64,000 nucleotides of DNA, from the IMG/VR virus record IMGVR_UViG_3300032116_000001, positions 310,001-374,000 of that record; one strand, 5' to 3'. Position 1 is the first letter of the stretch; each line of letters starts with the position of its first letter. This document shows, in pieces, positions 18,080 through 41,523 of this stretch. The position numbers and the translations under genes were made by a program. The notes beneath the pieces were generated by a model. That model searched no databases, had not been told where the DNA came from, and saw nothing but the letters and a program-made list of their open reading frames with translations. Source of the DNA: a virus.

Positions 18080-19186
18080 TTAAACAGGAGTTAATTCATC
18101 CCATAATTTCCAATAAGGTCCAAATGGGATATATGGCTTAAAATCAAACATAAACTGGCGAAGTTCTCTCCAAAGCATCCAGAATTCATTGGCTTTTTCC
18201 GCAGACCATTTATTTTCGTAATCTAAGATATCATTAAGGGCCTGATTATATTCCTTGTTGAGTGGGTGCTTTGTGTCAAAAATATATTTATTTCCGTGTG
18301 CTTCGGCCTTCGCCTGCCACATTTGATTGAAATCATTACTTCTTGTCATTTGCATGATTGCTGATTCGCGTAAATCTTCCATCGCTGCATCTATTTCTGA
18401 TATTTTTTGTGCAAATGGCTCCACAGATGAACTTCCGCCAAGATAATCATCTCGTATCACTTTGAAAGTAGGTATGATTCTTTGCAAAAAGTAGCGTTGC
18501 ATTTCTTCAGCGGCAAATGCAATACCCTGAGAATGATCCAGCTGGTGACCGTGAAATTCTCTGAAATTTTCTCTCTTCTCATGAGGATTGATAACGGGGT
18601 CTTCTTGGGGAGGCGGTGGGTCCCAGGTTTTGACTTTGATTGCATGAATTCCATAAGGAGTCAGGTCTAATTCTTCCCCATTGGCAAAGGCTTTGCCCAT
18701 CGCCTCTAAGGCCTGATCTAATCTAACGTCTCTGTTAAGTTCATTCAAATCGTAATCATCTTGCTCCGAAGAAGATGCTTTCCGTTTACCAAAATTATTG
18801 TTTAAAACACTTAGGTCAACAATTTCCATAGTTGAGCCATCGGGGTCAGTTGTAATAATACCATCATAGCCATCTGCGATCAGAGCATTTGAAAGCTCTA
18901 AGCCAGTTTTATTATATCGGTCACGAAGTACTTGCTTCCAATTGTCTTTATCACTATACCCGCCTTGGCCCCAAGGAATGATTAAGGGATTGGTAAATTC
19001 AATTTCTCCGTGCTCCCAGCCCTCAACAGGAGAAGTGCCTTCCTCGATCTTTGTTACATATTTCCCATGTGGCTCAATATCTTGGCCATATGTATCTTTA
19101 AAATCAGGTGCGCTAATAGGATTCCGCTGGTACCTAATTTTGTAAGTATCTTTCTTTTGCTCTGACTGTGCCTTTTTATACCACAT
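18080..19186 (-). CDS. MWYK-tagged protein with ART/polyvalent-like region
   Basis: 368 residues beginning MWYKKAQ, the leader shared with genes at 31832, 32716, 33629, 34522 and 40054. Residues about 40-75 (GKYVTKIEEG, WEHGEIEFTNPLIIPWG) and 95-125 (LSNALIADGYDGIITTD, STMEIVDL) resemble the end of ADP-ribosyltransferase-like domains of phage polyvalent proteins. The rest is helical and unrecognised. Catalytic residues cannot be assigned, so ART activity is tentative. Four bases after the upstream gene; probably in one operon with 19190-23867. Confidence 0.6.
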   Translation of the reverse strand: MWYKKAQSEQKKDTYKIRYQRNPISAPDFKDTYGQDIEPHGKYVTKIEEGTSPVEGWEHGEIEFTNPLIIPWGQGGYSDKDNWKQVLRDRYNKTGLELSNALIADGYDGIITTDPDGSTMEIVDLSVLNNNFGKRKASSSEQDDYDLNELNRDVRLDQALEAMGKAFANGEELDLTPYGIHAIKVKTWDPPPPQEDPVINPHEKRENFREFHGHQLDHSQGIAFAAEEMQRYFLQRIIPTFKVIRDDYLGGSSSVEPFAQKISEIDAAMEDLRESAIMQMTRSNDFNQMWQAKAEAHGNKYIFDTKHPLNKEYNQALNDILDYENKWSAEKANEFWMLWRELRQFMFDFKPYIPFGPYWKLWDELTPV

Positions 19187-19189
19187 GTG

Positions 19190-21757
19190 TTATCCTCCTT
19201 CGTATTTGTAATATGGATTTGCAGGTCTCCGACGAACACTGACTTCTTCAGAAGAATCTGGCCCTATGCTTTCTCTAAGCACCTTGCCAGTTTCTATGTC
19301 ATCAATAGAAACTGGCCCAATGTATTTTCGGGGATTGTGAGACTCAATGTAAAACTGCATTCTCTCAGCATCATCACCATAGGCATCATACAATCCTCTT
19401 GCTATTTCTTGAAGTGATGCTTTGTTCAGGTTATATGTTTCGACATGCTTGCCCTGCACCCGATGCCAACCAAAATTTTTAAGGGCGTATGTTCTGGGAT
19501 CGCGAAAACCATCCCAGTCTTTATCCATTTGTTCACGCGCTTCTTTGGGGTCTAATTTAGGGTTTTGTTTGAGTTTTTTCCAAAGCAAGTATTCATACAG
19601 GTCTGCATCTTCATGGGCGTTTTCAATCGCATCTCCATTTCCATTGTGAATACTTGTTAAATGCTGATTATAATCATCTAAGTCCCTAATATTATTTCTG
19701 AAAATATCATACGCATGCTCCCTTGTTATTGGCCACTCAGAATGATTTTCTATGTCAAAGCCAAGTCTATTGAGCATTTCCTCTTCGGCCAACATTTCAT
19801 GATTAATATCGCCAACATCACCGTCTGCATAAACAGCCTCGCCGTCTTTTAGCCACCATTCGTTAGCTGTGCGTTGCATTGACGTCACTCTTGTCATCAA
19901 CTGATCTGCCATGCGATACATACCCTTCTTATCACATGCGCTTGATAAAATCAACATTGATTGAATCTGATTGTAAAGGCTCCTCGGGATTTTATTTGCT
20001 TGGCGCAATTGTTTTCTTTTCGAATATTTCCATGTGCCATCGAATTTTTGATCAAACTTTGGATCATTCATATCCTGATCGCTTAAATCGTCAACGTGCG
20101 TAAATAATTTGGGGTAATCAGCAGAATTGATTTTCTTTATTTCAAGCAGTATTGGCAGTTGTTGGTATCCAGTTAATTCTTCAAACAAAGACATATATTC
20201 GTCATCTATAGACTCGCCCAACTGTGATTGGATTTCCATATCCAAGCCGTATGGAAGTGTACTGGTGATATATTGTTGATGTTCGGGGTTTGAATAAAGC
20301 TCAGCGGTGTTAATTCGATATTCTTTTTTATATTCATCAATACTTTTAATCGAATTATCATAAAGTGTTTTTACATTTGAAGTGTTCATCCACCAATATA
20401 TCCCACGTTCTTTATTGCTCTTGCTTTCCCAATCAGCAAAGTTTAATGCAAAGGGTTTGTGAATTTCATCTGGGTTTGCTATCATAGCAGACATATTTGC
20501 AATGTCAGATTTCATAGCAACTTCGATCATGGTTTTTGCAACGACATCCATGTTATTTGTGTACTTTATGTTTGTTGGCACTTGCTTTCGGGTTGTGGGG
20601 TCCCATTGCACATCAGTCAAGGCCTCGGAAACATTTTCGTATATTGTCTCAATGTCATTGTGTCTTATGTCTTTTTCAACTTGTTTATAAGGGATTCCAT
20701 AATCATCATCTACAACATCCTCGTCGTAATGAGCCCCGTAAGCGCTATCATATATTCCTGCCACAATAGATTCAATTTCCTTGCTACTACCCCAATCAAT
20801 TTCTTCTTCAAAGGGGCTTTGGCTCGACCATTCTGCGTCACCTAGATCACCGAACCACTCAGAAATTCGCTCCCGATCTTTTGAATCAGGGGTTTTATTA
20901 CCAAATCCCTTAATCTGTAGGATTGTATTGGTTTTTCCGTCCATTTCTATTGTTACGTGCGGCTTGTTGTCTGGGCTTCTGAGTGAAAATATTCTAATAT
21001 CTCCTCTTTCTACTTGATAACAATAAGAACCAACGCAGTGAGACATTTGATTGCCCTCTACAGCTAGGTCATTCTTATTTGTCACCATGGTCATAAACCA
21101 TCCGTCTTCCCATTGATACACTACACGCTCGTCAATAATTTCTCCATTTTCGTCTCTTTTTAATGGCGTGTAAATTTTACCTTCACCTTTACCAGCTATC
21201 ATCTGATGCCAATCGTTTGATTTCTCAAGTGCTTGAGAGAGGTTATAGCTCGTGATGTCTAGCCGTGGTGTTTCAATTTTTTGATTACGATACCAGTCGT
21301 ATATTTCCCCAAAAAGATTGTTGAAATTTTCATACACACCTTGACTATTCAAATTAGTAAACAATCTGTAAACGTATCCGCCATTTTCATCGGGCTCTAA
21401 TCTTAACTTTCTTAATTGAGTTAAGGCCCATTTTTGAAACAAATCATCGTATCTAGCCACGAGTTGTAATTCCATCGGAGTCCACGATGTTGCTTTGGAC
21501 TGGGGTACAAAAACAGATTGTTCAAGTGTATTCCAATCGAGGCTTGGGTCTTGGTTCAATCTGTTGACATAAATGGGCAGCTTGTCTTGTGGTAAATGCT
21601 TTAAATTTTCAATCACATCTGCTTTTGTTCCGCGAGCTTGCAAGTTGTCAATTAATTCTTGCAGACCAGCCACAATAACACGACCAAGCCTCATAGGCTT
21701 TGCGTCAGATGTTTTGTTTGCGCCAAGGACGCGAGAAAATTTAAAACTATGCTTCAT
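19190..21757 (-). CDS. PcfJ-like domain protein, 855 aa
   Basis: Around residues 220-290: LAVEGNQMSHCVGSYCYQVERG, then IFSLRSPDNKPHVTIEM and ILQIKGFGN. This is the PcfJ-like signature (GxxMxHCVGxY...G...SLR...TIE...Q..G..N), a family of unknown biochemistry found on mobile elements and phages. Followed by about 550 mostly helical, acidic residues. A paralogue with the same core is at 40054. Overlaps the upstream gene by four bases. Its start carries no MWYK leader (begins MKHSFKFSRVLGA). Confidence 0.75.
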   Translation of the reverse strand: MKHSFKFSRVLGANKTSDAKPMRLGRVIVAGLQELIDNLQARGTKADVIENLKHLPQDKLPIYVNRLNQDPSLDWNTLEQSVFVPQSKATSWTPMELQLVARYDDLFQKWALTQLRKLRLEPDENGGYVYRLFTNLNSQGVYENFNNLFGEIYDWYRNQKIETPRLDITSYNLSQALEKSNDWHQMIAGKGEGKIYTPLKRDENGEIIDERVVYQWEDGWFMTMVTNKNDLAVEGNQMSHCVGSYCYQVERGDIRIFSLRSPDNKPHVTIEMDGKTNTILQIKGFGNKTPDSKDRERISEWFGDLGDAEWSSQSPFEEEIDWGSSKEIESIVAGIYDSAYGAHYDEDVVDDDYGIPYKQVEKDIRHNDIETIYENVSEALTDVQWDPTTRKQVPTNIKYTNNMDVVAKTMIEVAMKSDIANMSAMIANPDEIHKPFALNFADWESKSNKERGIYWWMNTSNVKTLYDNSIKSIDEYKKEYRINTAELYSNPEHQQYITSTLPYGLDMEIQSQLGESIDDEYMSLFEELTGYQQLPILLEIKKINSADYPKLFTHVDDLSDQDMNDPKFDQKFDGTWKYSKRKQLRQANKIPRSLYNQIQSMLILSSACDKKGMYRMADQLMTRVTSMQRTANEWWLKDGEAVYADGDVGDINHEMLAEEEMLNRLGFDIENHSEWPITREHAYDIFRNNIRDLDDYNQHLTSIHNGNGDAIENAHEDADLYEYLLWKKLKQNPKLDPKEAREQMDKDWDGFRDPRTYALKNFGWHRVQGKHVETYNLNKASLQEIARGLYDAYGDDAERMQFYIESHNPRKYIGPVSIDDIETGKVLRESIGPDSSEEVSVRRRPANPYYKYEGG

Positions 21758-22731
21758 GAGATATTCGATTTGCCCCCAGCTTTATCTGTGTATGTTGTGG
21801 TTTTTGGCTTCTTTCCATCGCCAGGCTCACGTTCCTTTCGCGATTTTTGCTTCATGCGCTCTTTGCGCTCCTTGTCAGACAGGCTTTTGGCTTTATTAGC
21901 GGGTGTGCAAACGGGCTTTTTGCCTTTGCTACTATCACTTCTGCCGCATTCTTCGTAGCCACCATCTTTTTTTGGTCGCCGTACATCCACCCACTTTTCG
22001 TTCTTAAACCAATCGTCTAAACCACCGTGGTTTTTGGCATATTTGTTGGTTATTAAATCTATAGCATCCGCAAGGTGGTGTTTGCCATAGCAATCGGCTG
22101 CCTGCGCAGTTTTTGCTAATTCATCTGACACGAAAGTGACATCATCGTTGTCGTCGTCATCGCCGTACCATTCCGTGCGTCGTTTTGCAGCCTTGTCAAA
22201 AGCGCCAAGACAATCACTTAAATATTCAGCTAATATAAAATCAGGCGTATCACTGTTGTTTTCTAGAGAAAATGAATTAATTAGGCTTTCAAGTTCTTTT
22301 CGGAAGGATTTATGATCGTTAGCTTCTTTAATGTCGTCGTCTGATTCCTGATCCCACTCTGATTGTGGTACTAAATTGATAATTTGAAATCCGACATCTG
22401 GCAATTCAAATGCAATGTGATTAGCGTCAATAGCTGCAGGAGCGTTCATTGCTTCATCAGGCATAGAATCAATAAATTCACCGATAGTGATCCATTCTTT
22501 TGAATCCCAATTTCCTTTCGGGTCTACGCGATAAAGATTTGAGTCATAATTGTTTAAAGCGTCTTCCAAGGTCATTTCGGACTCTATGACATCTTTGTGT
22601 TCCAAAAGTGATTTATTTTCTTTGGCAACACGAATAAACACATCATGAAGAGATGATGCTTCATGATGTAAACCAAGCCCTTCAATCAAAGACGCAGTTT
22701 GATGAATTTTTGCAAGCAAATTTTGATTCAT
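21754..22731 (-). CDS. tagged protein with basic Cys-containing C-terminal motif
   Basis: 325 residues. Residues 1-40 are the recurring helical module (IEGLGLHHEASSLHDVFIRVAKE). An acidic middle follows, then the C-terminus WFKNEKWVDVRR, CGRSDSSKGKKPVC, SLSDKERKERMKQK. That terminal region resembles DUF5872-like domains of large phages and giant viruses. The basic tail suggests nucleic-acid contact. Probably a virion-internal protein. Same module and layout as the two upstream genes. Confidence 0.65.
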   Translation of the reverse strand: MNQNLLAKIHQTASLIEGLGLHHEASSLHDVFIRVAKENKSLLEHKDVIESEMTLEDALNNYDSNLYRVDPKGNWDSKEWITIGEFIDSMPDEAMNAPAAIDANHIAFELPDVGFQIINLVPQSEWDQESDDDIKEANDHKSFRKELESLINSFSLENNSDTPDFILAEYLSDCLGAFDKAAKRRTEWYGDDDDNDDVTFVSDELAKTAQAADCYGKHHLADAIDLITNKYAKNHGGLDDWFKNEKWVDVRRPKKDGGYEECGRSDSSKGKKPVCTPANKAKSLSDKERKERMKQKSRKEREPGDGKKPKTTTYTDKAGGKSNIS

Positions 22732-22732
22732 T

Positions 22733-23299
22733 TTATTTACCCGTCATGTCCCCGACTGTTTTGCCTGCTTCCCACATTCGGCAAGACCAATATCTTGCCT
22801 TTGTCTTTGGGCCAGGATTATCACAATTATGTCGGGCGCGGAAGTTCTTTCGGCGCTCAGGATTGTCTCTTTTAATATCAGTCGTTGGATCGCCGAAATT
22901 AACTTTTTTAACCTTATCACCATCTTTGACATAGACAGAGAATTTTTTAGGCCCATCTGGGGTGCGAAAAGGCTTGTTTAGTGGTTTGTTGGACTTTGCC
23001 TGAGCTTCTCTTTGTGGAGATTTTTCCAATTTGATAATTTTATCAAAATAACCAATGTCAATAAGCCGAGGGTCATCAATGTATTTTTCCACCGCATCAT
23101 TAAACTCGGCTCTTGCTTCATAGTGTAGTGTTTCCACGTTTTCTTCAAAATCAAGCTCTTCTAACTCTTTTGAAGATGACCTTTGATTAGTTGTGTTGAC
23201 ATTTGCTATCCGACTCAAAACATCAGTAAGGATATCAGCTTCTTCGTGCAGGCCTAGTTTGTCCAATTCGTGTGCCACTTGAGCAATCTTTTTCAGCAT
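22733..23299 (-). CDS. tagged protein with ARHNC-type C-terminal domain
   Basis: 188 residues from ATG 23299, two bases after the stop of the upstream gene; the longer open frame is rejected because it overlaps that gene. Residues 1-35 are the helical module (LDKLGLHEEADILTDVLSRIAN). The C-terminal 65 residues (KKFSVYVKDGDKVKKVNFGD, RRKNFRARHNCDNPGPK, RYWSCRMWE) match a conserved domain of large phages and algal-virus relatives, with Cys/His that may bind metal. Function unknown. Confidence 0.68.
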   Translation of the reverse strand: MLKKIAQVAHELDKLGLHEEADILTDVLSRIANVNTTNQRSSSKELEELDFEENVETLHYEARAEFNDAVEKYIDDPRLIDIGYFDKIIKLEKSPQREAQAKSNKPLNKPFRTPDGPKKFSVYVKDGDKVKKVNFGDPTTDIKRDNPERRKNFRARHNCDNPGPKTKARYWSCRMWEAGKTVGDMTGK

Positions 23300-23300
23300 A

Positions 23301-23867
23301 TTAGTCCTCTTTTTTCCACTTACCGCCCTTAGCCTTGTATCGCTTACTTGCAGCCCCGAGTGCATAAGCTGATGGCCAGACGTCGTATTTGTCCTTGGCC
23401 CAATTTTTGCAGCTTTCCCAAAGCTCAGGATTAGTGGGGATATTTTCTTTTTCTTTAGTCTTGGCAACTCGAATAAAAACTTCATGCATTTGTGATGCTT
23501 CAGCTGTCATACCCCGATCCTCAAGCTCTTCAGTGATTTGAGAAATCTTTGTAAGGACGCTGGCCACAGCACTAGTTGTAATGTTTTCTTCATCTTCTTC
23601 GTCGTCGCTCTGCAGGTTGTCTTCAAGTTCAAAATAACGTCTTAAAATTAACAATTCTTTTCTTAACTGATCTATTTCTTCGGGATCGTAGATTCCGCGA
23701 TCAAGCCCCTGTAAACACTGATCGACTTCCATCATTCCTTCCCAGGGATAATGTGCCACACCTGTTGACGCAAAAGAGTACAATGCAGAACCTTGACCGC
23801 CATGCCAATCACTTGCAATGCGGCGAAGTTCCCCGATGCTATATCCACTAATATCAATTTCACCCAT
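23301..23867 (-). CDS. tagged protein with PSAYA-type C-terminal domain
   Basis: 188 residues. N-terminal LRRIASDWHGGQGSALYSFASTG is a module also in the genes at 36115 and 36872. Residues about 110-140 are the helical module (LEDRGMTAEASQMHEVFIRVAK). The end, WAKDKYDVWPSAYALGAASK then KAKGGKW, matches a short basic domain widespread in large phages and giant viruses. First gene of a minus-strand operon running to 18080. Function unknown. Confidence 0.68.
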   Translation of the reverse strand: MGEIDISGYSIGELRRIASDWHGGQGSALYSFASTGVAHYPWEGMMEVDQCLQGLDRGIYDPEEIDQLRKELLILRRYFELEDNLQSDDEEDEENITTSAVASVLTKISQITEELEDRGMTAEASQMHEVFIRVAKTKEKENIPTNPELWESCKNWAKDKYDVWPSAYALGAASKRYKAKGGKWKKED

Positions 23868-25018: not shown

Positions 25019-25070
25019 ACAAATCAGTTTTTAGTCTACAAATTGAAACTCCCACATTAAATTTTAATGA

Positions 25071-25295: not shown

Positions 25296-25310
25296 CGCTT
25301 GGGAATATCG

Positions 25311-26432
25311 TCAACTACCACACGCACAAGGCGTGTGGCTTGCTACAAGCTCAGCCTTCGGCTGAGCGAACAATAGGGAGGTTGACTGCTCCCCTAAAGA
25401 ACCTATATTCTTACTGGCATTAAAGTCTGCATTCTCCGTGTGTCCGCAGGACATGCAGAGAAACACAGTTTGACTTTTTCTATTGGCTTTTTCACAATAT
25501 CCGCACTCACTACACGTCGCAGACGTGTAGTGAGCAGGAACAATAGCTAAAGGAACTCCATAGAGTTCAGCTTTGTAAGTAATGTAGCTTCTGAGTTGGG
25601 CGAATGCCCAACTCATTCTTTGACTTCTATTCACTCGCCTGACCGTTACTCTTTTGTTGATATGCGTTAGCTCTTCGAGAGCCAACGCATATCCGAGTGC
25701 CTTTGCTTTTGTTACTAAAAGTTTTGAAATGACGTGATTTGTGTCTTTTCTAAATCTGGATTCTTTTTGTCCACATTTCTTGATTCTTCTTTTTGCAGAG
25801 CGTGTTCCACGCTTCTGCAATCTTTGTCGATGAGAGTGATATTGTTTTCTTTTCTTCTCGATGTGTTCTCCCGAGAACACATCTCCTAAAGAACTTACAG
25901 CGATTTGTTTCACTCCTAAGTCTATTCCTATAACGTCTTTGGCGTTATAGGCTGATTCTGTTGGAATTTCTAAAGTACAAAGAAGATAGAACTTGCCATT
26001 TTGATAAACTAAATCAACTTGCCCCTTTCTATATTTGAAGCGTTCTTTGTCGTATATTTGGATTGGGATATTGATTCTTCCATCATTAGTCCAGATATTA
26101 ACTAAATCAGTTCCTTTAAAAGTGATTACTCTGTCGTCGTAGACGACAGCAGAAGTCTTTTTGAAGTAATTTGGATTTTTGCTTCTTTTCTTTTTATATG
26201 TAGCGGTAACCACATCAATAGCCCTTATTATTAATTGAGAAGAGAAGCTTGGATGCGTTTCACGCATCCCATGATATGCATTTCTTTGCAATTGAACTTT
26301 ATTATAAGTTTCTGTTGAATGAGCTATTGTTGAAAGCTCATTACAAACATCATTGAAAGTATTCATAGTGCGCAGAAGCGCACTATGATGAATCTCATTT
26401 GTATTGAGTTTCACTTTCAGAGTGATATTCAC
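25311..26432 (-). CDS. tnpB: TnpB, RNA-guided endonuclease with zinc ribbon
   Basis: 373 residues, GTG start. RuvC acids: Asp in GIDLGVKQIAVSS, Glu in LALEELTH, Asp in NADFNASKNIG. Zinc ribbon CSECGYCEKANRK...CMSCGH lies between them. Different branch from the TnpB at 7218, which lacks the ribbon. The last codons form a CCACACGC-ACAA-GGCGTGTGG hairpin, where the guide scaffold is usually encoded. No tnpA adjacent. Confidence 0.92.
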   Translation of the reverse strand: MNITLKVKLNTNEIHHSALLRTMNTFNDVCNELSTIAHSTETYNKVQLQRNAYHGMRETHPSFSSQLIIRAIDVVTATYKKKRSKNPNYFKKTSAVVYDDRVITFKGTDLVNIWTNDGRINIPIQIYDKERFKYRKGQVDLVYQNGKFYLLCTLEIPTESAYNAKDVIGIDLGVKQIAVSSLGDVFSGEHIEKKRKQYHSHRQRLQKRGTRSAKRRIKKCGQKESRFRKDTNHVISKLLVTKAKALGYALALEELTHINKRVTVRRVNRSQRMSWAFAQLRSYITYKAELYGVPLAIVPAHYTSATCSECGYCEKANRKSQTVFLCMSCGHTENADFNASKNIGSLGEQSTSLLFAQPKAELVASHTPCACGS

Positions 26433-26556: not shown

Positions 26557-26586
26557 CTGTTTTAAAAATTGTACAAGGAAAGTGTA

Positions 26587-27372
26587 ATGAGATTAAAAAC
26601 GAAACAAGAAATTTCAAAGATGTTTATCACTGGGGCCATTTTAGCCGATGCCCTTAAAATCATGAAAGAGTCAGTGGTGCCAGGTATCACAACCTTGGAA
26701 ATTGATTCTATAGGAGAATCGTATGTTAAGAGTTGTGGTGCAGTGGCCGCATTAAAGGGATTTAAGCCCCGATTTTCCGATCATGTTTACCAGCATGCAA
26801 CTTGTATTTCAGTTAATAATCAAATTATTCACGCCCCGCCCTCCGACTATACGATAAAAAAGGGGGATATTGTAACCTTGGACATGGCTATATCTAAAGC
26901 TTATTGGTATGCCGATGCGGCTATCACTATCGTAGTAGAAGACAATGACAGTGATGAATACAAAGAGTCAAAAATACTATCTGAATATACACACTTGGCA
27001 CTTTTGTCAACGATTGAAAAAATTATGTCAGGAGACATAAAAAAAACAAGCGACATTGGAAAGCATATTCAGAAAATGGCCGATAAAAAAAACTTCGGCG
27101 TGGTATCTGCGGCTTGCGGTCACTCGATAGGTCAAGAATTACATGAGCTAGGAATACAGATTCTTAATTCTTATGAAGAAGGAGATTCGGGGGTAAATAT
27201 TGTGCCAGGAATGACATTCTGTATAGAACCTATTTTTACAATGGGATCGGGTGATATTACGAAAGACAAGCTTGATCCTTGGACGATATATACTTCTGAT
27301 GGCTCTCATTCGGCTCACTGGGAACACACCGTGGCAATTACAGAAAATGGCCCCTTAATATTGACATTATGA
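26587..27372 (+). CDS. map: type I methionine aminopeptidase
   Basis: 261 residues from ATG 26587 (AAGGA 8 nt upstream; TTG 26569 is the alternative). All five metal ligands are in place: Asp in TLDMA, Asp in YADAA, His in CGHSIG, Glu in CIEPIF, Glu in HWEHTVA. It removes N-terminal Met from nascent proteins. In a phage with many proteins, several sharing MW-leaders, it may act on its own products, though Trp at position 2 normally blocks MetAP. ATGA overlap with a small downstream ORF. Confidence 0.92.
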   Translation: MRLKTKQEISKMFITGAILADALKIMKESVVPGITTLEIDSIGESYVKSCGAVAALKGFKPRFSDHVYQHATCISVNNQIIHAPPSDYTIKKGDIVTLDMAISKAYWYADAAITIVVEDNDSDEYKESKILSEYTHLALLSTIEKIMSGDIKKTSDIGKHIQKMADKKNFGVVSAACGHSIGQELHELGIQILNSYEEGDSGVNIVPGMTFCIEPIFTMGSGDITKDKLDPWTIYTSDGSHSAHWEHTVAITENGPLILTL

Positions 27373-31795: not shown

Positions 31796-31831
31796 AAGGG
31801 CTGTTTTGCCACCACGCCGAATTCATTTAAT

Positions 31832-32719
31832 GTGTGGTATAGGTCAGCATCTGAGTCATTGAACAAATCGCGTTACAATCGCGATTTGTCTTCGATTATG
31901 CAAGACACTTTTTTCCACGGCACGGCTGAAAACTTTGAAGGTCCGCTTAAAGGCGGCGCATATGATAACATTATATGGACAGCAAATAATCCAGCTGTAG
32001 CACAAAATTACATTCCAGCTTCAGGAGCGCAATCGGGTTTTTCTCTTGACAAATGGGCTGAGGATCACGAGCCATATTCTCACTTTCGATATCATCGGGG
32101 CACGGACGTTGCACTTTTGAAACAAATGGGATATGGCTATCCTACTGATGAAGAATTATATCCGAATGGTGAGCTTAAAAACTATCGTATAAAAGATCGC
32201 CATGCAACACATGGAGAGATGCGGGAATATTTAAGATCGCTGGGATACGACCCAGAAGAAGATTTTTGGATTAACACAGAATATGTTGATGGTGACGAGA
32301 TTGTCCGCCCCAAGAATTACAAAATGCCAGGCAGGCTTTTTATTGGGCATCCTCAAAAGCCTTTGAATATTTTTGATACTACTGAGTATTTAGAAGGCGA
32401 TGAATCTAACCCAGCTTATCACATGCATGATGTTTTTAATCTTATTAAAGGCAAGGGATATCACGGCGTTAAAATACCAGATTTTGCTCAGTCAAAAAAC
32501 TGGGGAAATGTGCATCACGAAAGTGTTGGAATTTTCCCCGAATATGTTGATCATTTAAACTGGGATGTTATACCAGCGGTAAATTTTGACTGGGGAGATA
32601 ATCTTTTAGGTGTTTATTCGACGCCTGACTGGGATATTCATCATAAGCAACAGATACTTTCTGCTCATCAAAGTGGCGAAAAAGTTGATCCTCGATTATT
32701 AGACTGGGCTCAAAATTAA
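31832..32719 (+). CDS. MWYR-tagged ADP-ribosyltransferase-like protein
   Basis: 295 residues, GTG start chosen because it gives the shared leader MWYRSAS. TFFHGTAENFEGPLKGG and IIWTANNPAVAQNYI fit the first two blocks of ART folds (H-G-T, then W/F-x-x-x-x-x-x-A-x-x-Y). Later YLEGDESNPAYHMHDV and GKGYHGVKIPDF. ARTs move ADP-ribose from NAD to a target. The catalytic Glu cannot be fixed by eye. Likely injected with DNA. Ends head to head with the next gene, overlapping by four bases. Confidence 0.65.
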   Translation: MWYRSASESLNKSRYNRDLSSIMQDTFFHGTAENFEGPLKGGAYDNIIWTANNPAVAQNYIPASGAQSGFSLDKWAEDHEPYSHFRYHRGTDVALLKQMGYGYPTDEELYPNGELKNYRIKDRHATHGEMREYLRSLGYDPEEDFWINTEYVDGDEIVRPKNYKMPGRLFIGHPQKPLNIFDTTEYLEGDESNPAYHMHDVFNLIKGKGYHGVKIPDFAQSKNWGNVHHESVGIFPEYVDHLNWDVIPAVNFDWGDNLLGVYSTPDWDIHHKQQILSAHQSGEKVDPRLLDWAQN

Positions 32720-33519
32720 ACGATTGACTGTCTTTCTGTTTTCTTTTCCCTTGTTGATTTTAACATTCTCCAGTTCTCTTTAATAAATTGAACAGCTTCT
32801 GAATATGTTTTTCCAGCTACTAATTCTCTTCCTGTATAATCCTCAACCATCCAGTTACCATAAACTTCTTTTTTCATCGGGAAAATCATTCCCTTGTTTA
32901 CGCTTGGCCCCCAAACAATAACTTGGGATTGCTGATCACCATGATGATCGAAAAGAATTCCTCCGCTATAAAACACAACTGCTTCGTTTCCATACTGCCC
33001 TGTAAAAGCAGTGTGCTCAGCGTCATTTGAATCCACTTGAAATGCAAAATTATAACCTGGGTCTTCCATGCGGTCTTCCTTCCAGGTTGATAGATGAACT
33101 CCCTCAATGTCAGGATGACCATATTTAAATCCTTCATTTTCGATATCTCTTGCATTTTCCGTGAAATGCACAAGCCAGTCGGGCCTGAGCGCTCTCTGAT
33201 ATTCTAATGAATTATATGCAGGACTTTCGTATGCATTTGAATTATCATATTGGTATCTTTCGCGAGAGTCATTTAAAAAACTAACAAATGCTTTGCGATA
33301 ATCATCAGGCGCATTGTTCAACCATGTATAGCCTCGTTCATCTGGGTAATCTTCCACGTCCTCCATGATGCTTGGGTCTAATCGGTATTCTTCGTGAGAA
33401 TCCAAAAAATTATCCACAAGAAAGGCATAATCATAAGGATTGGTTCCCTCTCGTACATAATCTCTCAAATAAGCAAGCTCTGTGCTATATCCCGCTTTTT
33501 TGATGCTTCTGTACCACAT
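32716..33519 (-). CDS. MWYR-tagged ART-like protein, second type
   Basis: 267 residues starting MWYRSIKKAG. RPDWLVHFTENARDIENEGF then GVHLSTW, GYNFAFQ, YGNEAVVFYSGGI and QSQVIVWGP match a family in large phages and some bacteria with an ART-like opening (L-x-H-F-T...I...G-F). First 85 residues acidic and helical. Enzyme activity unproven. Divergent from 33629, convergent with 31832. Confidence 0.55.
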   Translation of the reverse strand: MWYRSIKKAGYSTELAYLRDYVREGTNPYDYAFLVDNFLDSHEEYRLDPSIMEDVEDYPDERGYTWLNNAPDDYRKAFVSFLNDSRERYQYDNSNAYESPAYNSLEYQRALRPDWLVHFTENARDIENEGFKYGHPDIEGVHLSTWKEDRMEDPGYNFAFQVDSNDAEHTAFTGQYGNEAVVFYSGGILFDHHGDQQSQVIVWGPSVNKGMIFPMKKEVYGNWMVEDYTGRELVAGKTYSEAVQFIKENWRMLKSTREKKTERQSIV

Positions 33520-33628: not shown

Positions 33629-34519
33629 ATGTGGTACAAACTTGCTCAGTTGGCATCTGTTGACGCTCCAGTTCTTGGAAACCAATCTGGCCCCGCTCAT
33701 TTAGGAAGCGGCCAGGAAATGCTTATTGAAGCAGGCGGAGATAGTGTTCAAGAAGTTGTTAGTAATTTTATGAATAGCAGCCAGCCTGTATTCTTTAGAG
33801 ATTCAAATGGCCAGCAATATCTGATTATTCATGGCTCGCCCGCACAAGACGGAGCTATGTATTTTGATGGTGGGGCAGCGGGGTCAATTAGGCATGATGA
33901 ATTAGGCGATTGGATGCGCACTCAAGGATATGATCCAGGTGCCACGAAAGTGATAGCATGTCATGGTGGCCAAATTATGACGCTAAACTCACCTGGCATT
34001 ACCCCTGCCTTCGATTACACTGGTCAACTTGAGATTGCCGCGCCAAATGATGGCAGCGGAGATTTCCTTTCAATTAGAGGAGCCTCTGCAAGATACGCGC
34101 TTTCCAAGGAGGGACGAGGCAAAGTTGACATAGATGGTATCAAGGTTTGGATAGAATATCCCAAAGGCTCAACTCGATCAGGCAAGGGCAAGGACGGCAA
34201 AGAATGGAGCCGAAAGATGGAGTGTGATTATGGCCGAATCATGGGAACAGTAGGGGCTGATGGCGATGCTATTGATATGTTCCTTGGGGGAAATCTTGAC
34301 GCCGATAAAGTTTTTATCGTAGATCAACTGAATTCTGATGGCGACTTTGATGAGCATAAATGTGTTATGGGGTGCGACACCTTAAAGCAAGCAAAAGAAT
34401 TATATCTCTCCAATTATCCAAAAGACTGGAAATGCGGGAAAGTTACAGAAATGAACATTTCTGAATTTAAGAAGTGGCTTAAAAAAGGAGACAAAAAAGT
34501 CCCAGCATCATCGGAGTAA
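33629..34519 (+). CDS. MWYK-tagged protein with polyvalent inorganic-pyrophosphatase-like domain
   Basis: 296 residues from ATG 33629 giving MWYKLAQLAS; an earlier in-frame start would hide the leader. The C-terminal half has GRIMGTVGADGDAIDMFLG, KVFIVDQLNSDGDFDEHKCV, YPKDWKCGKV and FKKWLKK. That is the InPase-like domain described in phage polyvalent proteins. Its substrate there is unknown. N-terminal half beta-rich, unassigned. Two bases before the next gene. Confidence 0.72.
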   Translation: MWYKLAQLASVDAPVLGNQSGPAHLGSGQEMLIEAGGDSVQEVVSNFMNSSQPVFFRDSNGQQYLIIHGSPAQDGAMYFDGGAAGSIRHDELGDWMRTQGYDPGATKVIACHGGQIMTLNSPGITPAFDYTGQLEIAAPNDGSGDFLSIRGASARYALSKEGRGKVDIDGIKVWIEYPKGSTRSGKGKDGKEWSRKMECDYGRIMGTVGADGDAIDMFLGGNLDADKVFIVDQLNSDGDFDEHKCVMGCDTLKQAKELYLSNYPKDWKCGKVTEMNISEFKKWLKKGDKKVPASSE

Positions 34520-34521
34520 TT

Positions 34522-36084
34522 ATGTGGTACAAGCAGGCTCAAAACACCGTTGAAGAAAATAAAAAGTCCAAGTCTTTTTATTCTCATATGCTTCGCGTCG
34601 TTGAAGAAAAAATGGGCTCAAAAATGCCTGCTCAAGACCTTAAAAGACTGCTTCAAAAATCTGGCGTCAGTGCCGAAGAAATGAGTTGGGTACACCTTGA
34701 CGAGTATTTGGAAAACAACCCTATTGTTTTTAAATCAGATTTGATAAATAGAATACAGTCAAAGCTGCACAATATTGTAGTTCACGAAATGGATTATGAA
34801 CAAGAACATGAAGACAATCGTGATACCACATGGGGAACGCAATTTGATGATGAAGATTACTTCAAGGGCTATGAAGACTATACTCTGCCCTACGGGGATG
34901 ATTATAAGGAGTTTTTAATTACAATCGGCGCGAAACCAGAAGATGAGTTTATTGATTATTTGATGAAGATAAATACTGGTTACGAGCGAATGGGTCGCGA
35001 AGCACTAAAGAAAAGCATTGAAGAGCATCCTGGTTCGTGGCGCAATCATTGGGGACATTGGAAGCGTTCTTTGGGGGAGGACTTCCCCGATTATGAATCT
35101 AGGCACTTCGAGGGTCATAAAAACCCCATAGCTCACATGAGAACGACTTCAAGAACGTCTAAGGACGGAAAGAAGTCTTTACATATTGAGGAAATACAAA
35201 GCGACTGGCACCAGGATGGGCGCAAACATGGATATGATCGGCCAGGACGTGCCAAAGATATAATCACAGTGTCGAAGCTGTGGGAGAAGGTTGCTGTTTT
35301 TAAATCGGCCACGGAAGAAGAAAAGAAAGAATATGAAGCTGCAAAAACAAGGTTAGAAAGAGATCAGTGGCGACCCGACACTGTCCCCCCTGGCCCATAT
35401 GCGAAAAACTGGCACGAATTGGCGATGAAGCATGCTATTGATATGGCAGTACGCGGCGGTTATGATCGCGTAACATGGAACACGGGTGATATTAGCCGAA
35501 ACATATTTGGGCTATCTAATGTTTTAGATAAATTAGAATTAACAAAAGATCAAAACGGAAGAATTTATATTCGTGGCTGGATGTCAGATAAAATAAAAGT
35601 TAACCAACAAGCTGTCGAGTCAAAAGAGCTTGCAAATTATATAGGCAAAGACCTGGCAGAGAAATTTTTATCATCGGGGCAAGAATCAATGGTTATTCAG
35701 GGTAAAGACTTGGAATATGGCGGCTACGGATTGCAAGCATTTTATGATCACATTCTGCCAAGCTTTACTAAAAAATACATTAAAAAATGGAACGGGGACG
35801 TTGGCGAGCATGAGGTGAATCAGGGTCAATACATGCACTACATTCAGGAAAGGCCAGCGCCTGATGGTTCGTGGATTGTCCGTCAATTTAGTCCATCAGG
35901 ATTAAATGAATCAACTGAATCTTTTCCGTCTTTAGAAGAGGCGAAAAAGTTTAAGGAAGAGAACAGAGTCAAATCTTGGGCGAAAGTTCACGGATTTGAT
36001 ATTACCCCCGAAATGCGAGAAGATATACAGAATAATGGACAGAGACTTGCCACATCCATTGTGGCCAGAAGAGTGAAAGGATAA
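34522..36084 (+). CDS. MWYK-tagged large polyvalent-protein-associated domain protein
   Basis: 520 residues starting MWYKQAQ. Core motif LHIEEIQSDWHQDGRKHGY near residue 220, then KNWHELAMKHAIDMAVRGGY, DRVTWNTGD and a late GLQAFYDHILPSF. These are hallmarks of an LPD domain otherwise found inside giant polyvalent proteins of phages and conjugative elements. Function unknown, expected to travel with the DNA. N-terminal 150 residues helical and acidic. Confidence 0.75.
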   Translation: MWYKQAQNTVEENKKSKSFYSHMLRVVEEKMGSKMPAQDLKRLLQKSGVSAEEMSWVHLDEYLENNPIVFKSDLINRIQSKLHNIVVHEMDYEQEHEDNRDTTWGTQFDDEDYFKGYEDYTLPYGDDYKEFLITIGAKPEDEFIDYLMKINTGYERMGREALKKSIEEHPGSWRNHWGHWKRSLGEDFPDYESRHFEGHKNPIAHMRTTSRTSKDGKKSLHIEEIQSDWHQDGRKHGYDRPGRAKDIITVSKLWEKVAVFKSATEEEKKEYEAAKTRLERDQWRPDTVPPGPYAKNWHELAMKHAIDMAVRGGYDRVTWNTGDISRNIFGLSNVLDKLELTKDQNGRIYIRGWMSDKIKVNQQAVESKELANYIGKDLAEKFLSSGQESMVIQGKDLEYGGYGLQAFYDHILPSFTKKYIKKWNGDVGEHEVNQGQYMHYIQERPAPDGSWIVRQFSPSGLNESTESFPSLEEAKKFKEENRVKSWAKVHGFDITPEMREDIQNNGQRLATSIVARRVKG

Positions 36085-36114
36085 TTGTAATTTTAAACAG
36101 AAAAAGAGACTATC

Positions 36115-36861
36115 ATGAATCGTATCGCTGTCATAAAGTCATTAATTGCGATTGCTAACTCCTTGGAAGATCAGGAATTATCCTCTGAGGCCTCGCGATT
36201 AGATGCAGTAATTAGAAAAATCGCCAGCATTGATGATGAAGGGGGCCTTCAAGGTGATTTTAATATATCCCCTTCCATTATTAATTCTTTAGGCGGCGAT
36301 AGTGCAATGAATGAGCAAAATTCATCTGCCATGCAGCAAGCCGAGCGAATGATTAACGAGGCTGCAGGAGTCCCGTCTATGCGAGAGTTAGCTGTACGAT
36401 GGAGTGTTTCGCCAGGGTCAGCCCTTTGGATTTATGCTCAAACTGGCGAAGTAAATGATCTTGTACATCGCAAGGCGCTTTTAAAGGAAATTTCAGAAGC
36501 CATTGATAAAAATCATGACCCTCAAGAGGCTATTTTGCTCAATCAATTTTATAGCTTGATTTTGAAAACACTGCCAGTTGCAATAGGTCAAAACAAAGTT
36601 AATGTAAAGTCGGTAAATCATAGTCGCAAACCAAGTGATATTGGGGGAGAAGATATATTCTTAACTTTCACCACTGAAGATGATCATGTTGGCGGCATAC
36701 AAATGCATAAATCAGACAAGGGTCAAATTCAATTTGTTGGATCGGGTTATTTTAAAGATGGCAAATTTATGTCATGGGGATATAATGCACAAGACAGCAG
36801 CCTGCTTGCCAACGCACTTAACTCTTTTCTTATGGAGCAAGAAAGACAATCATATAGGTAA
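36115..36861 (+). CDS. tagged helical-module protein, 248 aa
   Basis: Residues 1-39 are the helical module (SLIAIANSLED, LSSEASRLDAVIRKIAS). Residues about 85-110 hold LAVRWSVSPGSALWIYAQTG, the second module shared with 23301 and 36872. C-terminal domain beta-rich, unrecognised. Paralogue of the next gene, probably by tandem duplication. Confidence 0.7.
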   Translation: MNRIAVIKSLIAIANSLEDQELSSEASRLDAVIRKIASIDDEGGLQGDFNISPSIINSLGGDSAMNEQNSSAMQQAERMINEAAGVPSMRELAVRWSVSPGSALWIYAQTGEVNDLVHRKALLKEISEAIDKNHDPQEAILLNQFYSLILKTLPVAIGQNKVNVKSVNHSRKPSDIGGEDIFLTFTTEDDHVGGIQMHKSDKGQIQFVGSGYFKDGKFMSWGYNAQDSSLLANALNSFLMEQERQSYR

Positions 36862-36871
36862 AAAAACAAAC

Positions 36872-37663
36872 ATGGATCGCATAGCTACAATCAAATCTTT
36901 AATTAAAATCACAAACGCACTGGAAAAAGGTGGGTTTTATAAAGAGGCCCAAACTCTTGACTATGTGATTCGTCGTATTGCCAGTATTGAGAACGAAGGA
37001 GGGCTTAATGGAGAATATGATATTTCTCGGGCCATTCTTAATGACATAGAAAACCCTAAGCTTTCCGACGATTTACCAAATTTTGATACTGCAGAAAACA
37101 TGATCGAAGAATTGCCAGATAGATTCTTGCAGGACAACATATTTGACGAAGAGGATGAAGAAATTGACCCAGAAGAAAAAGAATTAAGACTTCTGGCAAG
37201 TCGATGGAGCACAGGAAAGGAATCCGCTTTACACGGGTTTGCTGTTTCTGGCATGATCGTAGATTTAGATGATCATGCTAGGGCTCTTGAAGAGATTGAT
37301 CGAGCGCTGGATTTAAACACTGATCCAGAAGAATATATCAGATTAAGAGACCTTGAGGCACATTTAATAATGTCTATTCCTCTCATAATCCCATTTATTG
37401 GCTATGATAGCATCAAAGACATCAAAATACAACCTCGGAGCACGGAAAAAGGTCTTGACGTGATGTTTTTCTTTAGAACTGATCGAGGTTTTCGTGGTGT
37501 GCTTAATTGCAGCGTTGACCATCAAGAAAATATTATCCCGCGTTTTACGGGGCTTGAAGATAACGGTGAATACAAATCAATGCATTATTCCAACGATCAA
37601 ATTAAACAATTGGCTGAAGCTTTTTTTAGAAGATTACACATTGAAACAGGGGGAGATATATAA
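36872..37663 (+). CDS. tagged helical-module protein, 263 aa
   Basis: Starts at ATG 36872 (MDRIATIKSLI); the open frame continues upstream into the previous gene and is ignored there. Helical module ends KEAQTLDYVIRRIAS. LASRWSTGKESALHGFAVSG near residue 110, then LEEIDRALDLNTDPEEY. C-terminal domain like that of 36115 (DVMFFFRTDRGFRGV versus IFLTFTTEDDHVGGI). Structural or injected role inferred. Confidence 0.7.
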   Translation: MDRIATIKSLIKITNALEKGGFYKEAQTLDYVIRRIASIENEGGLNGEYDISRAILNDIENPKLSDDLPNFDTAENMIEELPDRFLQDNIFDEEDEEIDPEEKELRLLASRWSTGKESALHGFAVSGMIVDLDDHARALEEIDRALDLNTDPEEYIRLRDLEAHLIMSIPLIIPFIGYDSIKDIKIQPRSTEKGLDVMFFFRTDRGFRGVLNCSVDHQENIIPRFTGLEDNGEYKSMHYSNDQIKQLAEAFFRRLHIETGGDI

Positions 37664-37665
37664 TC

Positions 37666-38031
37666 ATGCAGCTTATTAGCAAAATGCTCACCATGCAATC
37701 TCAACTTCGCATTTTTCATTGGCAATCAAAGACTTTTGCACAGCATGAAGCCTTTGGCAAGGCCTATGAGTCACTTGATGAATTGGTGGATGATTTCATA
37801 GAAGTATTTCAAGGGACTAGAGGTGTTGTAAAAACAAAAGGTAAATTCAATTTGCAACTTTGTAATCTTACCGATTGTGATCCCGTAGAATTGATTAATG
37901 AGCACATTGAATTTTTATCCAATGATTTGACAAATTTATTAAATGACAAAAAAGACACCGATTTGTTAAATTTAAAAGACGAAATGATCGCAGTTTTAAA
38001 CAAAACCAAGTATTTACTCAGATTAACCTAA
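37666..38031 (+). CDS. DUF5856-like small helical protein
   Basis: 121 residues. MLTMQSQLRIFHWQSKTFAQHEAFGKAYE, here cited in parts, has the QLRIFHWQT-type motif and AFGxxYExLDELVDDF of DUF5856. The HWQ...H..F pattern recalls Dps/ferritin-like helices, but no ferroxidase set is evident. Two bases after the previous stop. Confidence 0.7.
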   Translation: MQLISKMLTMQSQLRIFHWQSKTFAQHEAFGKAYESLDELVDDFIEVFQGTRGVVKTKGKFNLQLCNLTDCDPVELINEHIEFLSNDLTNLLNDKKDTDLLNLKDEMIAVLNKTKYLLRLT

Positions 38032-38032
38032 G

Positions 38033-40057
38033 ATGAAATCATTAGCTATTTCGCGTGTGCAAACGATGCTAAGAAGTGCATCGAGTTTAGATAAAATTGG
38101 CAAGTATGCAAGTGCTGATATTTTATCTAATGCTGCGCATCATATGTTAAAAAAGATTTCTCAAACAAACATGTCAACAAGAATTCCTGCTGATTCATAC
38201 ATGGAAAAATATATGGATCAATACAAGGATTATTTTGGAGAGCCAACTATTGATAAAGATGGTTCTCCAAAATATTATACGGATCAATATGATGATATAG
38301 ACCATTCTTATGTCTTTGCGCTGAAAAATAACCCAACCGCGATAGATAATCTTAGACCAAGTGAATTAAAATACTGGCATAAAAGACAGACGCAGATGCA
38401 TGATTACGAGCCAGATCATCAAACGTGGGATCATTTAAAGCATTCTTTTGAAAGAGGAACTCCCGAATATGATCATTATCTTAGGCTTTTGTCTCGCGAT
38501 CCTGTTTACGAAAATATCAATCCCGATGATTTGATTAATTATGTGAAATCACAGCAAGATCAATATAGCCGTGGAGACTGGAGCAATCCAACGGACTGGA
38601 ATGTTGCTCATTCTCTTCTTCGAGCTGCTAATCACTATTTAATACATGATAATTTTGATTATAAAAATTATGTTTCTGACATCGAAAGTCCTTACAATCT
38701 TACAAGCCCCTTAAATCAGCAGCAAGTTGATGATCGCCGAGCCCTTAATTTAGTAATGGAACGAGATAAACCCATGGTCAAACTGCCTCCTACAGAGGCA
38801 TACAGACTGGGCGACGGATCATTGATCCATTTTAACATGGGTCGCAGAGACACTATATTAAGACATTTTACAAAAGATGATGTCGATAAGCCTTACGACG
38901 AACTAATTGCGCGAAGCCTGTTAAGCAATGATAAAGACATAGCAAGCGAAAAGCTCAACAGCATTAAAGAAAAAATGAAAAATATTTATCGGATGACCCC
39001 CGAAAACACAGAAAATTATTATCATTATCTGAAAGTTTTCGCTATGTATCCTAATTTAATCGGAACATCATTAAAAAACATTGATGAAATCGTATCTAAT
39101 CTAAATGAAGGGCAAGACGGGTCAAATGACATGGGAAGACTCATGGTTGTCTTTAATAAAAATTGGCGACAATGGGTGGCTAAATTTAATAATGATGTTC
39201 ACGAAGCTGCGCAAATCTTGCCAATGGGCAGTACACAGGACTTGCGCGGACTAGGCGATTTGCTAATGCAGTGGTATGGCAAGGTCAAAACTACAGATTT
39301 GTACACAATAGCCTCATATTGGCCAAATCTTACCGCAGAAGATAAATCACTTCCTATTGATCAACTAGCTGATCGAGTTCGATATTACAAAGTCAGGCAG
39401 CTTTTTAAAGCAGAAAGCATTAATCATCCTTCTTTTGCAATCGAGGCAGCCAAATGGTGGCAATCTGCCGAGGGCGACGAGGATGATGCATGGCTTAACA
39501 TTGATGAAGATGATGACACAGAGCCGTTCGATTATGAAAACATTGAAAAATTGTTTATCGACTCTCAAAATGTACCCCTCCCTGTTTGGGCTTCATACAC
39601 AGCAAGTATTGGTGGGTTGACTGGAAGATTTTTGCCTCGTTCAGACGTCCGCGGGTTGTTCCTGGGTCAATACAGCAATTCCTGTCAACATCCCTGGGGA
39701 GTTGGAGCAAGTTGCGCAATTCACGGCCAAACCTCGCCGCATGGAGCATTTTTTGTTGTTGAAGACCAGAAAGGCAACATCATCGCCCAAAGTTGGGTGT
39801 GGGAAGATTATGACGGAGATGTTGTTTTTGATAATGTCGAGGCGCTTGGCATTGGCGACAGAAGAATGCCAATAGTTCAGTCAATTTATAAAACTGTAGC
39901 GGAACAAATGGAAGGCCGTATAGTTCACATAGGAACGGGCGGAAGCGACTTGGATTTGGAACCATTTAAAGACACAGACTTTCGACTCGCGCCAAATGAT
40001 TATTATGGGTATCGAGACTCCACAAGACAAAAAATACTCGCAGACAACACTTATTAA
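38033..40057 (+). CDS. tagged large protein, 674 aa, with conserved C-terminal domain
   Basis: N-terminus LRSASSLDKIGKYASADILS, HHMLKKISQT is a variant of the helical module. Middle is helical and unassigned. The last 160 residues carry GRFLPRSDVRGLFLGQYSNS, CQHPWGVGASCAIHG and AQSWVWEDYDGDVVFDNVE, a domain seen in large-phage proteins, acetyltransferase-like by feel only. Overlaps the convergent gene by four bases. Confidence 0.65.
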   Translation: MKSLAISRVQTMLRSASSLDKIGKYASADILSNAAHHMLKKISQTNMSTRIPADSYMEKYMDQYKDYFGEPTIDKDGSPKYYTDQYDDIDHSYVFALKNNPTAIDNLRPSELKYWHKRQTQMHDYEPDHQTWDHLKHSFERGTPEYDHYLRLLSRDPVYENINPDDLINYVKSQQDQYSRGDWSNPTDWNVAHSLLRAANHYLIHDNFDYKNYVSDIESPYNLTSPLNQQQVDDRRALNLVMERDKPMVKLPPTEAYRLGDGSLIHFNMGRRDTILRHFTKDDVDKPYDELIARSLLSNDKDIASEKLNSIKEKMKNIYRMTPENTENYYHYLKVFAMYPNLIGTSLKNIDEIVSNLNEGQDGSNDMGRLMVVFNKNWRQWVAKFNNDVHEAAQILPMGSTQDLRGLGDLLMQWYGKVKTTDLYTIASYWPNLTAEDKSLPIDQLADRVRYYKVRQLFKAESINHPSFAIEAAKWWQSAEGDEDDAWLNIDEDDDTEPFDYENIEKLFIDSQNVPLPVWASYTASIGGLTGRFLPRSDVRGLFLGQYSNSCQHPWGVGASCAIHGQTSPHGAFFVVEDQKGNIIAQSWVWEDYDGDVVFDNVEALGIGDRRMPIVQSIYKTVAEQMEGRIVHIGTGGSDLDLEPFKDTDFRLAPNDYYGYRDSTRQKILADNTY

Positions 40058-41523
40058 TTATTCGATGATGTTAGCTGCTTTCTGGCGTCATATAATTCTC
40101 TAAATTTTCTAATTTTTTCTCTGACTTGTTGATTATTTATTTTTAATCCGTTAATCAAAATTGTCAGGAATCTTGCGCGTAAATCGTCACGTTCCCATGA
40201 TGACATTTTGCGGTCGAGAAGTGAGTCAAACTGGCTTTGCCATTTTTCCATTTCCTCTTCATACTCATCTTCGTCTTCAAAATTATTCTCTGGCTCCTCT
40301 GGCATTAAATAATATATTTCGTCTTTCAATTCTTTTTCTGCCTTGTTTTTATAATCTTCAAAAAAACTGTCAACCTCATCGTATGAAGTTGTGTAATTCC
40401 AATAATATTTATCGAACTTACGCTTTTCGGCTAACTGTTCATCTCTTTTTGCTAAAATCTTTAGTAAACTATAAGCAGCATCATCAGCATAACGATCTTC
40501 TAACTGTCCCCACGTATTTTCAAATTTGTCCAGAGTGTTTTCCACTGCATATAATACATCTAATTTAGTGAAATCAGTGTCTTGAGCCAGTCCATATTGA
40601 TCTATTTCTGCCCCGTATTGATCGATATGATCGGCAACAGATTTCATGTCAACTCCGTCTAAATTAAATTCTTTTGTAATCAGCGATTCTTCCCATTTTT
40701 GCACTGGCAGATTTTCAACCCACTCTTTAATATATGATTGGTAATCTTCGCTTAGCACACGATTGGAGTGCCCCTTAATTTCAGAAATCTCCCCATATTC
40801 GTTCATCCTTATGGTCGCTACTGGATGATTTGTTTCGTCTCTTAGGGAAAATATTTGGTATTTCCCTTCTTTTACATCATCGCAGTATGTTCCAACGCAG
40901 TGATTCATTTTATTTCCCTCCGCTCTAAGATCATTCTCAGATGTGACTAACTGCATCGTGTACCCATCATCGTAATCGTAAACTACATTTGCGGGACTAA
41001 TTGGCTCATACATTAATCCAGAACCCTTGCCAGCCATCATTGTGTGCCATTCTTCGGACATTTTGACAGCCGAGGCCCAATCATAAGAAGAGAGCTGGAA
41101 TCTCGATTGTCCTTGGTCATCGAGGGGGTGACGTGCGATTTCGTAATTATACCAATCTTTAATCGCATCTGCCTGATTAATAATTTCCAGATTGTCAATG
41201 GCATATTTTCTACCATTGGGGTCCAACCTCATTTTCTTTACTTGAATCAAAAGCCATTTTGCAAATTGTGGAATATTTTGATAGCGCATGTAAAGATTAG
41301 ATTCAAAATTGCTTTGCTGATTTTGTTCAGTTTTGATATTAGCAAGATTTTGAATTTCTTCTATCGTGGCGTTTGGTTTGTTTCTGACAATATTCACATA
41401 AATTTTTTGGTGATCGGGGTTCTGATCACCAATCCACGCAATAACATGATCGGGAACACCAAGTGACTTTAAATATTCCTCTTGGGTCCCCGATATGCAA
41501 ACTTTTGCGTATTTATACCACAC
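40054..41523 (-). CDS. MWYK-tagged PcfJ-like domain protein
   Basis: 489 residues starting MWYKYAK. Core LRAEGNKMNHCVGTYCDDVKEG, IFSLRDETNHPVATIRM, ISEIKGHSN parallels the gene at 19190, which is longer and lacks this leader. LSSYDWASAVKMSEEWHTMMAGKG also has its counterpart there. Paralogues differing in N-terminus suggest tag swapping. Biochemical role of PcfJ-like domains unknown. Confidence 0.75.
   Translation of the reverse strand: MWYKYAKVCISGTQEEYLKSLGVPDHVIAWIGDQNPDHQKIYVNIVRNKPNATIEEIQNLANIKTEQNQQSNFESNLYMRYQNIPQFAKWLLIQVKKMRLDPNGRKYAIDNLEIINQADAIKDWYNYEIARHPLDDQGQSRFQLSSYDWASAVKMSEEWHTMMAGKGSGLMYEPISPANVVYDYDDGYTMQLVTSENDLRAEGNKMNHCVGTYCDDVKEGKYQIFSLRDETNHPVATIRMNEYGEISEIKGHSNRVLSEDYQSYIKEWVENLPVQKWEESLITKEFNLDGVDMKSVADHIDQYGAEIDQYGLAQDTDFTKLDVLYAVENTLDKFENTWGQLEDRYADDAAYSLLKILAKRDEQLAEKRKFDKYYWNYTTSYDEVDSFFEDYKNKAEKELKDEIYYLMPEEPENNFEDEDEYEEEMEKWQSQFDSLLDRKMSSWERDDLRARFLTILINGLKINNQQVREKIRKFRELYDARKQLTSSNN

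Follow-up and report, generated by a model that had tools for sequence, protein, structure and literature searches.

We have found that a short peptide beginning MWY[KR] is conserved at the N-terminus of many proteins with unrelated bodies, and of the protein encoded next to the portal gene, in one clade of giant phages; the label itself is real. We infer that the destination of the labelled proteins is the virus head, and we favour, with some confidence, the reading that the leader would act as a short linear address peptide that loads proteins into the head for delivery. Head packaging is favoured because of the type of cargo, the tagged portal neighbour and the precedents of bacteriophages T4 and P1. 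The initial annotation of this DNA had proposed a sorting, packaging or cleavage tag. That the peptide is a tag is borne out by its enrichment, its conservation as a peptide, its restriction to one clade, the unrelatedness of the bodies behind it, the occurrence of homologues of one domain with and without it, and its place on the portal neighbour; of the options named, packaging is the one that our analysis favours, whereas cleavage is without support, nothing being conserved beyond about residue 9.

A conserved peptide on unrelated proteins

The window analysed here, 64,000 nucleotides long, comprises positions 310001-374000 of a 378,848-base phage, the source phage. All six open reading frames that had been annotated with a shared start lie where they had been placed and begin MWY[KR] (Table 1), with GTG as the start codon of two of them (31832 and 41523) rather than of one, as had been stated. 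Their bodies fall into six different BLAST families, in keeping with the earlier view that they are unrelated; the InPase and PcfJ assignments also held, the ART likeness came without a domain match, and the protein at 34522 gave a match to a polyvalent-type PHROG. The leader at 33519(-) agrees with the motif only in MWYR. The gene at 33629 has an in-frame TTG (33584) 15 codons upstream of its ATG; we do not prefer this TTG and, because the leader is conserved, place the start at the ATG. For the proteins at 31832 and 18080, a search of viral contigs found no relatives. The window also encodes, as judged by eye only, two TnpB-like transposon proteins (7218-8396(+) and 25311-26432(-)).

Table 1. 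Positions of leaders, tagged genes, second-module genes and structural genes, in the window or in the whole source genome.
Feature	Frame	Position	Strand	Details
Leader MWYKKAQ	window	19166..19186	-	of the 368-aa gene 18080-19186; leader of its G017 BLAST relative, MWYRVIK
Tagged protein	window	18080..19186	-	368 aa; BLAST family 10; no Pfam match; ART-like by eye only
Leader MWYRSAS	window	31832..31852	+	GTG start
Tagged protein	window	31832..32719	+	295 aa; FFHGT... motif, ART-like by eye; no Pfam/PHROG match
Leader MWYRSIK	window	33499..33519	-	ORF start
Tagged protein	window	32716..33519	-	267 aa; LVHFT... motif, ART-like by eye; no Pfam/PHROG match
Leader MWYKLAQ	window	33629..33649	+	ATG start; kept in family 2 members of other phages
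Tagged InPase-domain protein	window	33629..34519	+	296 aa; PF18823, E=9.5e-45
Leader MWYKQAQ	window	34522..34542	+	ORF start
Tagged protein	window	34522..36084	+	520 aa; phrog_7348 (polyvalent-type PHROG), E=1.8e-8
Leader MWYKYAK	window	41503..41523	-	GTG start
Tagged PcfJ-like protein	window	40054..41523	-	489 aa; PF14284, E=1.7e-14; tagged orthologues in G003
Untagged PcfJ-like protein	window	19190..21757	-	PF14284; homologous to the tagged 40054 gene, BLAST E=8.5e-36
Second-module neighbour	window	21754..22731	-	HMM match residues 4-40, E=2e-12
Second-module neighbour	window	22733..23485	-	HMM match residues 62-96, E=5e-15; true start probably inside the ORF
Second-module neighbour	window	36680..37663	+	HMM match residues 71-103, E=5e-11
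Second module	window	23301-23867	-	by eye
Second module	window	36115-36861	+	by eye
Second module	window	38033-40057	+	by eye
Terminase	genome	114897		
Tagged gene before portal	genome	129977		146 aa; directly upstream of portal
Portal	genome	130479-132941		L014:979-3441
Head maturation protease domain	genome	in 133087 gene		phrog_18299
Major head protein	genome	139986		phrog_2522, E=6.7e-66
Tagged gene, looser match	genome	146293	-	
Conserved gene, apparently tail module	genome	164602-165297	-	
Tagged CCA-adding/polyA polymerase with HD	genome	183320		722 aa
Further tagged gene	genome	246543		
Further tagged gene	genome	248370	-	
Tagged gene, looser match	genome	375334	-	

The shared starts are not due to chance. 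The window has 8 copies of the DNA pattern DTGTGGTAYMR where 0.35 are expected, none of 100 shuffles reaching 8, and the source genome has 7 called MWY[KR] starts against 0.027 expected, genes being called by a simple longest-ORF method; at least 10 tagged starts are present once alternative starts are allowed. A search of the genome and its relatives, which had been suggested as a check, showed the same enrichment in the source phage and six relatives: these seven clade phages, five of them covered in full or nearly so, have 2-13 called MWY[KR] starts each where 0.005-0.04 are expected, and phage G and mycobacteriophage Tonenili have none. Exact matches to RTGTGGTAYMRNNNNSCNMAR number 34, in 16 of 24 related records, with 0 for the reversed control. 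When the residue pairs at positions 2-3 were counted blind, W-Y was the most enriched pair in four of five large genomes (G000, G003, G006 and G015; log10 p -9.6 to -22.7) and ranked second in the fifth, G019; the top pair in phage G is K-R. A collection-wide scan with two stricter patterns gave 89 matches, 67 of which open a frame of at least 80 aa, most of them on contigs resembling the source-phage clade. Cellular genomes gave 84 matches to the first of these two patterns; 5 of the 80 inspected open an ORF of at least 50 aa with a stop no more than 20 codons upstream, and by eye none of the 80 resembles a tagged protein, so that occurrence of the leader in cellular genomes is rejected. The WY leader is restricted to one phage clade. 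Our literature search found no report of MWYK together with phage, which does not prove that none exists.

It is the peptide that is under selection, because conservation is confined to codons 1-7, synonymous codons and Lys and Arg codons are mixed, and the upstream DNA is not conserved. In a codon and residue profile of 97 tagged genes both Tyr codons (TAT and TAC) are used, position 4 is encoded by AAA, AAG, AGA, AGG, CGA, CGC, CGG or CGT, Ala fills position 6 in 71 genes and Ser in 11, and at position 7 there are 38 Gln and 14 Lys; strong conservation ends at about residue 7, the information reaches background beyond about codon 9, and nothing but a weak bump resembling a ribosome site is seen upstream. 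Codon diversity and unconserved flanks rule out a DNA- or codon-level explanation and, together with the 52 body families described below, recent duplication of a single 5' end. The Met-Trp start is itself dispensable and the core is WY[KR]xA, since in some variants Met is followed by one or two additional residues (MSWYRLAQ, MPWYKIAQ, MAWYRKAN, MGWYKQAS and MSTWYRKAQ) and a sister lineage has MSWYRLAK. Written out, the leader is Met, at most two optional residues and W-Y-[K/R]-x-A-[Q/K/S]. Met is normally removed before Ser, Pro, Ala or Gly as the second residue. The existence of MSWYR, MPWYK, MAWYR and MGWYK in relatives, where Met would normally be lost, therefore leaves little weight to the earlier argument that MetAP spares Met before Trp and that the tag persists for this reason. 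The phage itself encodes a MetAP-like protein (26569-27372(+), genome 336569-337372), with homologues in three other clade phages.

By single linkage, the 97 tagged proteins form 52 BLAST families. The domains on them are PcfJ, InPase, ART-PolyVal, NUDIX with HAD_SAK_2, DnaJ, GNAT, AAA_33 kinase, 2H phosphoesterase and polyA-polymerase/HD (CCA-adding), and one member has a sub-threshold LPD26 match; most of the proteins have one recognised domain, the exceptions being NUDIX+HAD and polyA-polymerase+HD. The kinase, NUDIX and CCA-adding enzymes bear the tag in some phages but not in others, and G015 has a DnaJ domain on one tagged and one separate untagged protein; because such untagged homologues exist, the tag has the appearance of an add-on module. 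In the source genome, the genes for DNA replication lack the tag. Some tagged genes are not obvious cargo, for example those of family 13: this conserved gene, apparently of the tail module (Table 1), starts with WYxxA or WYxxS variants, has relatives in G003, G006, G015, G018, G019 and G025, and in several genomes reads MSPWYKTAKE, MFNRWYSTARE or MRRSWYQTSKQ.

The source phage and its portal neighbour

The major head protein of the source phage is 46.5% identical over 100% to gp27 of Bacillus phage G, and IMG/VR contains 39 close relatives of it; on account of this homology we regard the source as a phage-G-like giant phage. Its clade is known here from metagenomes only, and the relatives are metagenomic contigs without hosts. 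The portal protein carries a DUF559/MTES_1575-type nuclease domain at its C-terminal end.

The gene directly before the portal begins MWY[KR] in 23 of 25 distinct versions and MSWYRLAK in the other two, both from the sister lineage; in the relative L077 no MW ORF is found within the 606 bases available upstream of its portal. The protein is 93-211 aa long, with a middle that varies in length and sequence and, in most members, a conserved C-terminus (PSNQTW-like). In the sister genome G020 the motif stands on the portal-adjacent protein only and no tagged cargo was found, so that the cargo tag is not universal. A possible third leader in the sister lineage, M[SP][IV]FKKASV, was rejected, since no more than one or two genes per genome carry it.

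Other leaders and a second N-terminal module

Phage G, which belongs to the same capsid family, has a leader of its own, MKRLIKK[AS], on PARP-, GNAT- and NDT-like proteins (its loci include L292, L299, L303, L331 and L333) as well as on gp13, whose gene precedes the portal and which starts MKRLISK. In phage G, [KR]RL[IVKLF]K stands close to the N-terminus in fourteen genes where 0.14 are expected, and a scan of ten of the leader proteins gave three weak PARP matches, one nucleoside deoxyribosyltransferase and one GNAT. The cargo classes of the two leaders overlap, whereas the peptides differ, phage G having no MWY starts. Near the capsid gene of Tonenili, three proteins have a common N-terminus, MR.I.TAREQxEML.PW (L260:13171-13548, 15488-17086 and 17079-18380). 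Tunturi_5, a more distant jumbo phage of the same head-protein family, has no leader beyond one gene, and the leader strategy is therefore not universal.

A second module of about 35 residues, helical-hairpin-like and with a consensus like I..L..IAN.LD..GLY.EAN.LT.VM.RIA, occurs in the clade on 97 proteins of 66 body families and is N-terminal in 79 of them. This set does not overlap with the WY-leader set, and their equal size is coincidental. Four proteins of 900-1000 aa carry the module at the extreme C-terminus (G003 34141, 37124 and 39846; G006 77485). Three body families bear the WY leader in one phage but, in a different phage, the second module (weak matches, 21-34% identity); this swapping suggests, as a lead from sequence comparison, that leader and module may have related roles. 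Co-clustering of the two along genomes was not significant (15 against 10.6 by chance).

Destination of the tagged proteins

The first 10 residues of T4 IPIII suffice to target foreign proteins to the head, and IPI and IPII have an identical or nearly identical leader before mature parts that differ (PMC9026906). The WY leader resembles this capsid targeting sequence (CTS) in that a short N-terminus (about 10 residues in T4) is common to proteins with unrelated bodies and that the accessory cargo varies between phages; T4 also packages an ADP-ribosyltransferase, Alt. It differs in sequence (MKTYQEFIAEA and MKTFKEFTS in T4, the unrelated MWYKxAQ here), in cleavage (after L/I-X-E in T4, with no conserved Glu or later site here, where another specificity is possible) and in scale (T4 has three such internal proteins, this clade at least 52 tagged body families). 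Because sequence and cleavage site do not correspond, we place the WY leader, CTS-like in its presumed working, outside the T4 CTS family. In P1, the first 30 residues of DarB direct foreign proteins into the head, and here too an N-terminal signal puts a host-defence-evading protein into the head, but the Dar N-termini have no consensus (PMC9024508), whereas one consensus stands on dozens of proteins in our set. Packaging and injection have been predicted for polyvalent proteins with ART-PolyVal, InPase, PcfJ and LPD domains (PMC5512222); their domain repertoire matches that of the tagged proteins, among which RNA-repair-type enzymes also occur, although the polyvalent proteins fuse 2-15 domains where we see mostly separate proteins that share a leader. 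SPN3US and phiKZ are giant phages too, and their heads contain numerous internal proteins that pass into the host, but their propeptides are mostly longer than 100 residues and protease-processed, and no common 6-residue leader was found in the parts of the accounts cited here (PMC5694885, PMC10052503).

We propose that during prohead assembly the leader would bind a head component near the portal (the portal, the core or scaffold, or the head protease) and that the tagged proteins would thereby be enclosed in the head. After adsorption they would be ejected with the DNA and act early in infection, possibly through ADP-ribosylation, pyrophosphate removal, RNA repair and protein acetylation. 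The portal-adjacent protein, in which the tag and the C-terminal motif are conserved and the middle is variable, may be the ligand in its original form, which the cargo copies.

A short common N-terminus on enzymes would suit any localisation signal, and the tag might instead recruit proteins to a replication compartment, membrane or scaffold inside the cell, with no packaging involved. The CCA-adding enzyme, DnaJ and NUDIX could then serve replication; we nevertheless consider such sorting unlikely, the DNA replication genes themselves being untagged. We searched all clade and relative proteins examined with phiKZ gp54, gp55 and gp71 (phmmer) and obtained no match at E<=10; with no homologue of the phiKZ nuclear shell (ChmA) or of the phiKZ-type RNA polymerase beta subunit, there is no sign of a phiKZ-type nucleus, and sorting to one is rejected. 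It is distinctly unlikely that the tag binds the neck, the outside of the portal or the tail, so that the proteins sit on the surface or in the tail of the virion. The WYxxA and WYxxS variants of the conserved tail-module gene in several genomes would fit docking of this kind, and the portal-adjacent protein might belong to the neck, but the cargo consists mostly of soluble nucleotide, RNA and protein enzymes that are sensible only in, or delivered to, the cytoplasm.

In bacteria, Trp and Tyr act as primary destabilising residues once they are exposed, and with a MetAP-like protein encoded by the phage the leader could be read as a degradation signal (an N-terminal Trp/Tyr N-degron); alternatively, its early codons could be a translation-start element. 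Both ideas seem to us hardly credible, since Trp would stay covered in MSWYR, MPWYK, MAWYR and MGWYK, Lys and Arg replace each other through unrelated codons, the upstream DNA is not conserved, and neither idea needs the Ala at position 6. Removal of the leader by the head maturation protease, with xAQ within the cleavage site and in the manner of the T4 and SPN3US propeptides, is very improbable: the protease domain is encoded (phrog_18299) and the A and Q/K positions are conserved, but nothing is conserved beyond about position 9 and the motif lacks the Glu of T4-type sites, which need L/I-X-E (PMC9026906). Such cleavage is in any case compatible with packaging and not exclusive of it.

Returning to loading into the head, it is possible, and we put this forward tentatively, that phage-G-like giants use one docking site to recruit an open-ended range of effectors, unrelated to one another, by way of an exchangeable N-terminal tag of lineage-specific sequence (WY[KR]xAQ here, MKRLIKK[AS] in phage G), and that the same genomes employ at least one further interchangeable tag, the hairpin-like module of about 35 residues. 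If head loading is true, every gene in these phages that starts with MWY[KR]xA would encode a protein injected at the onset of infection, and unannotated giant-phage genes would become candidate host-takeover or anti-defence effectors by sequence alone. The short signal could also be tried as a means of loading cargo into very large capsids, and tag-based loading, known from T4 and P1, would have come about in further phage lineages through unrelated sequences.
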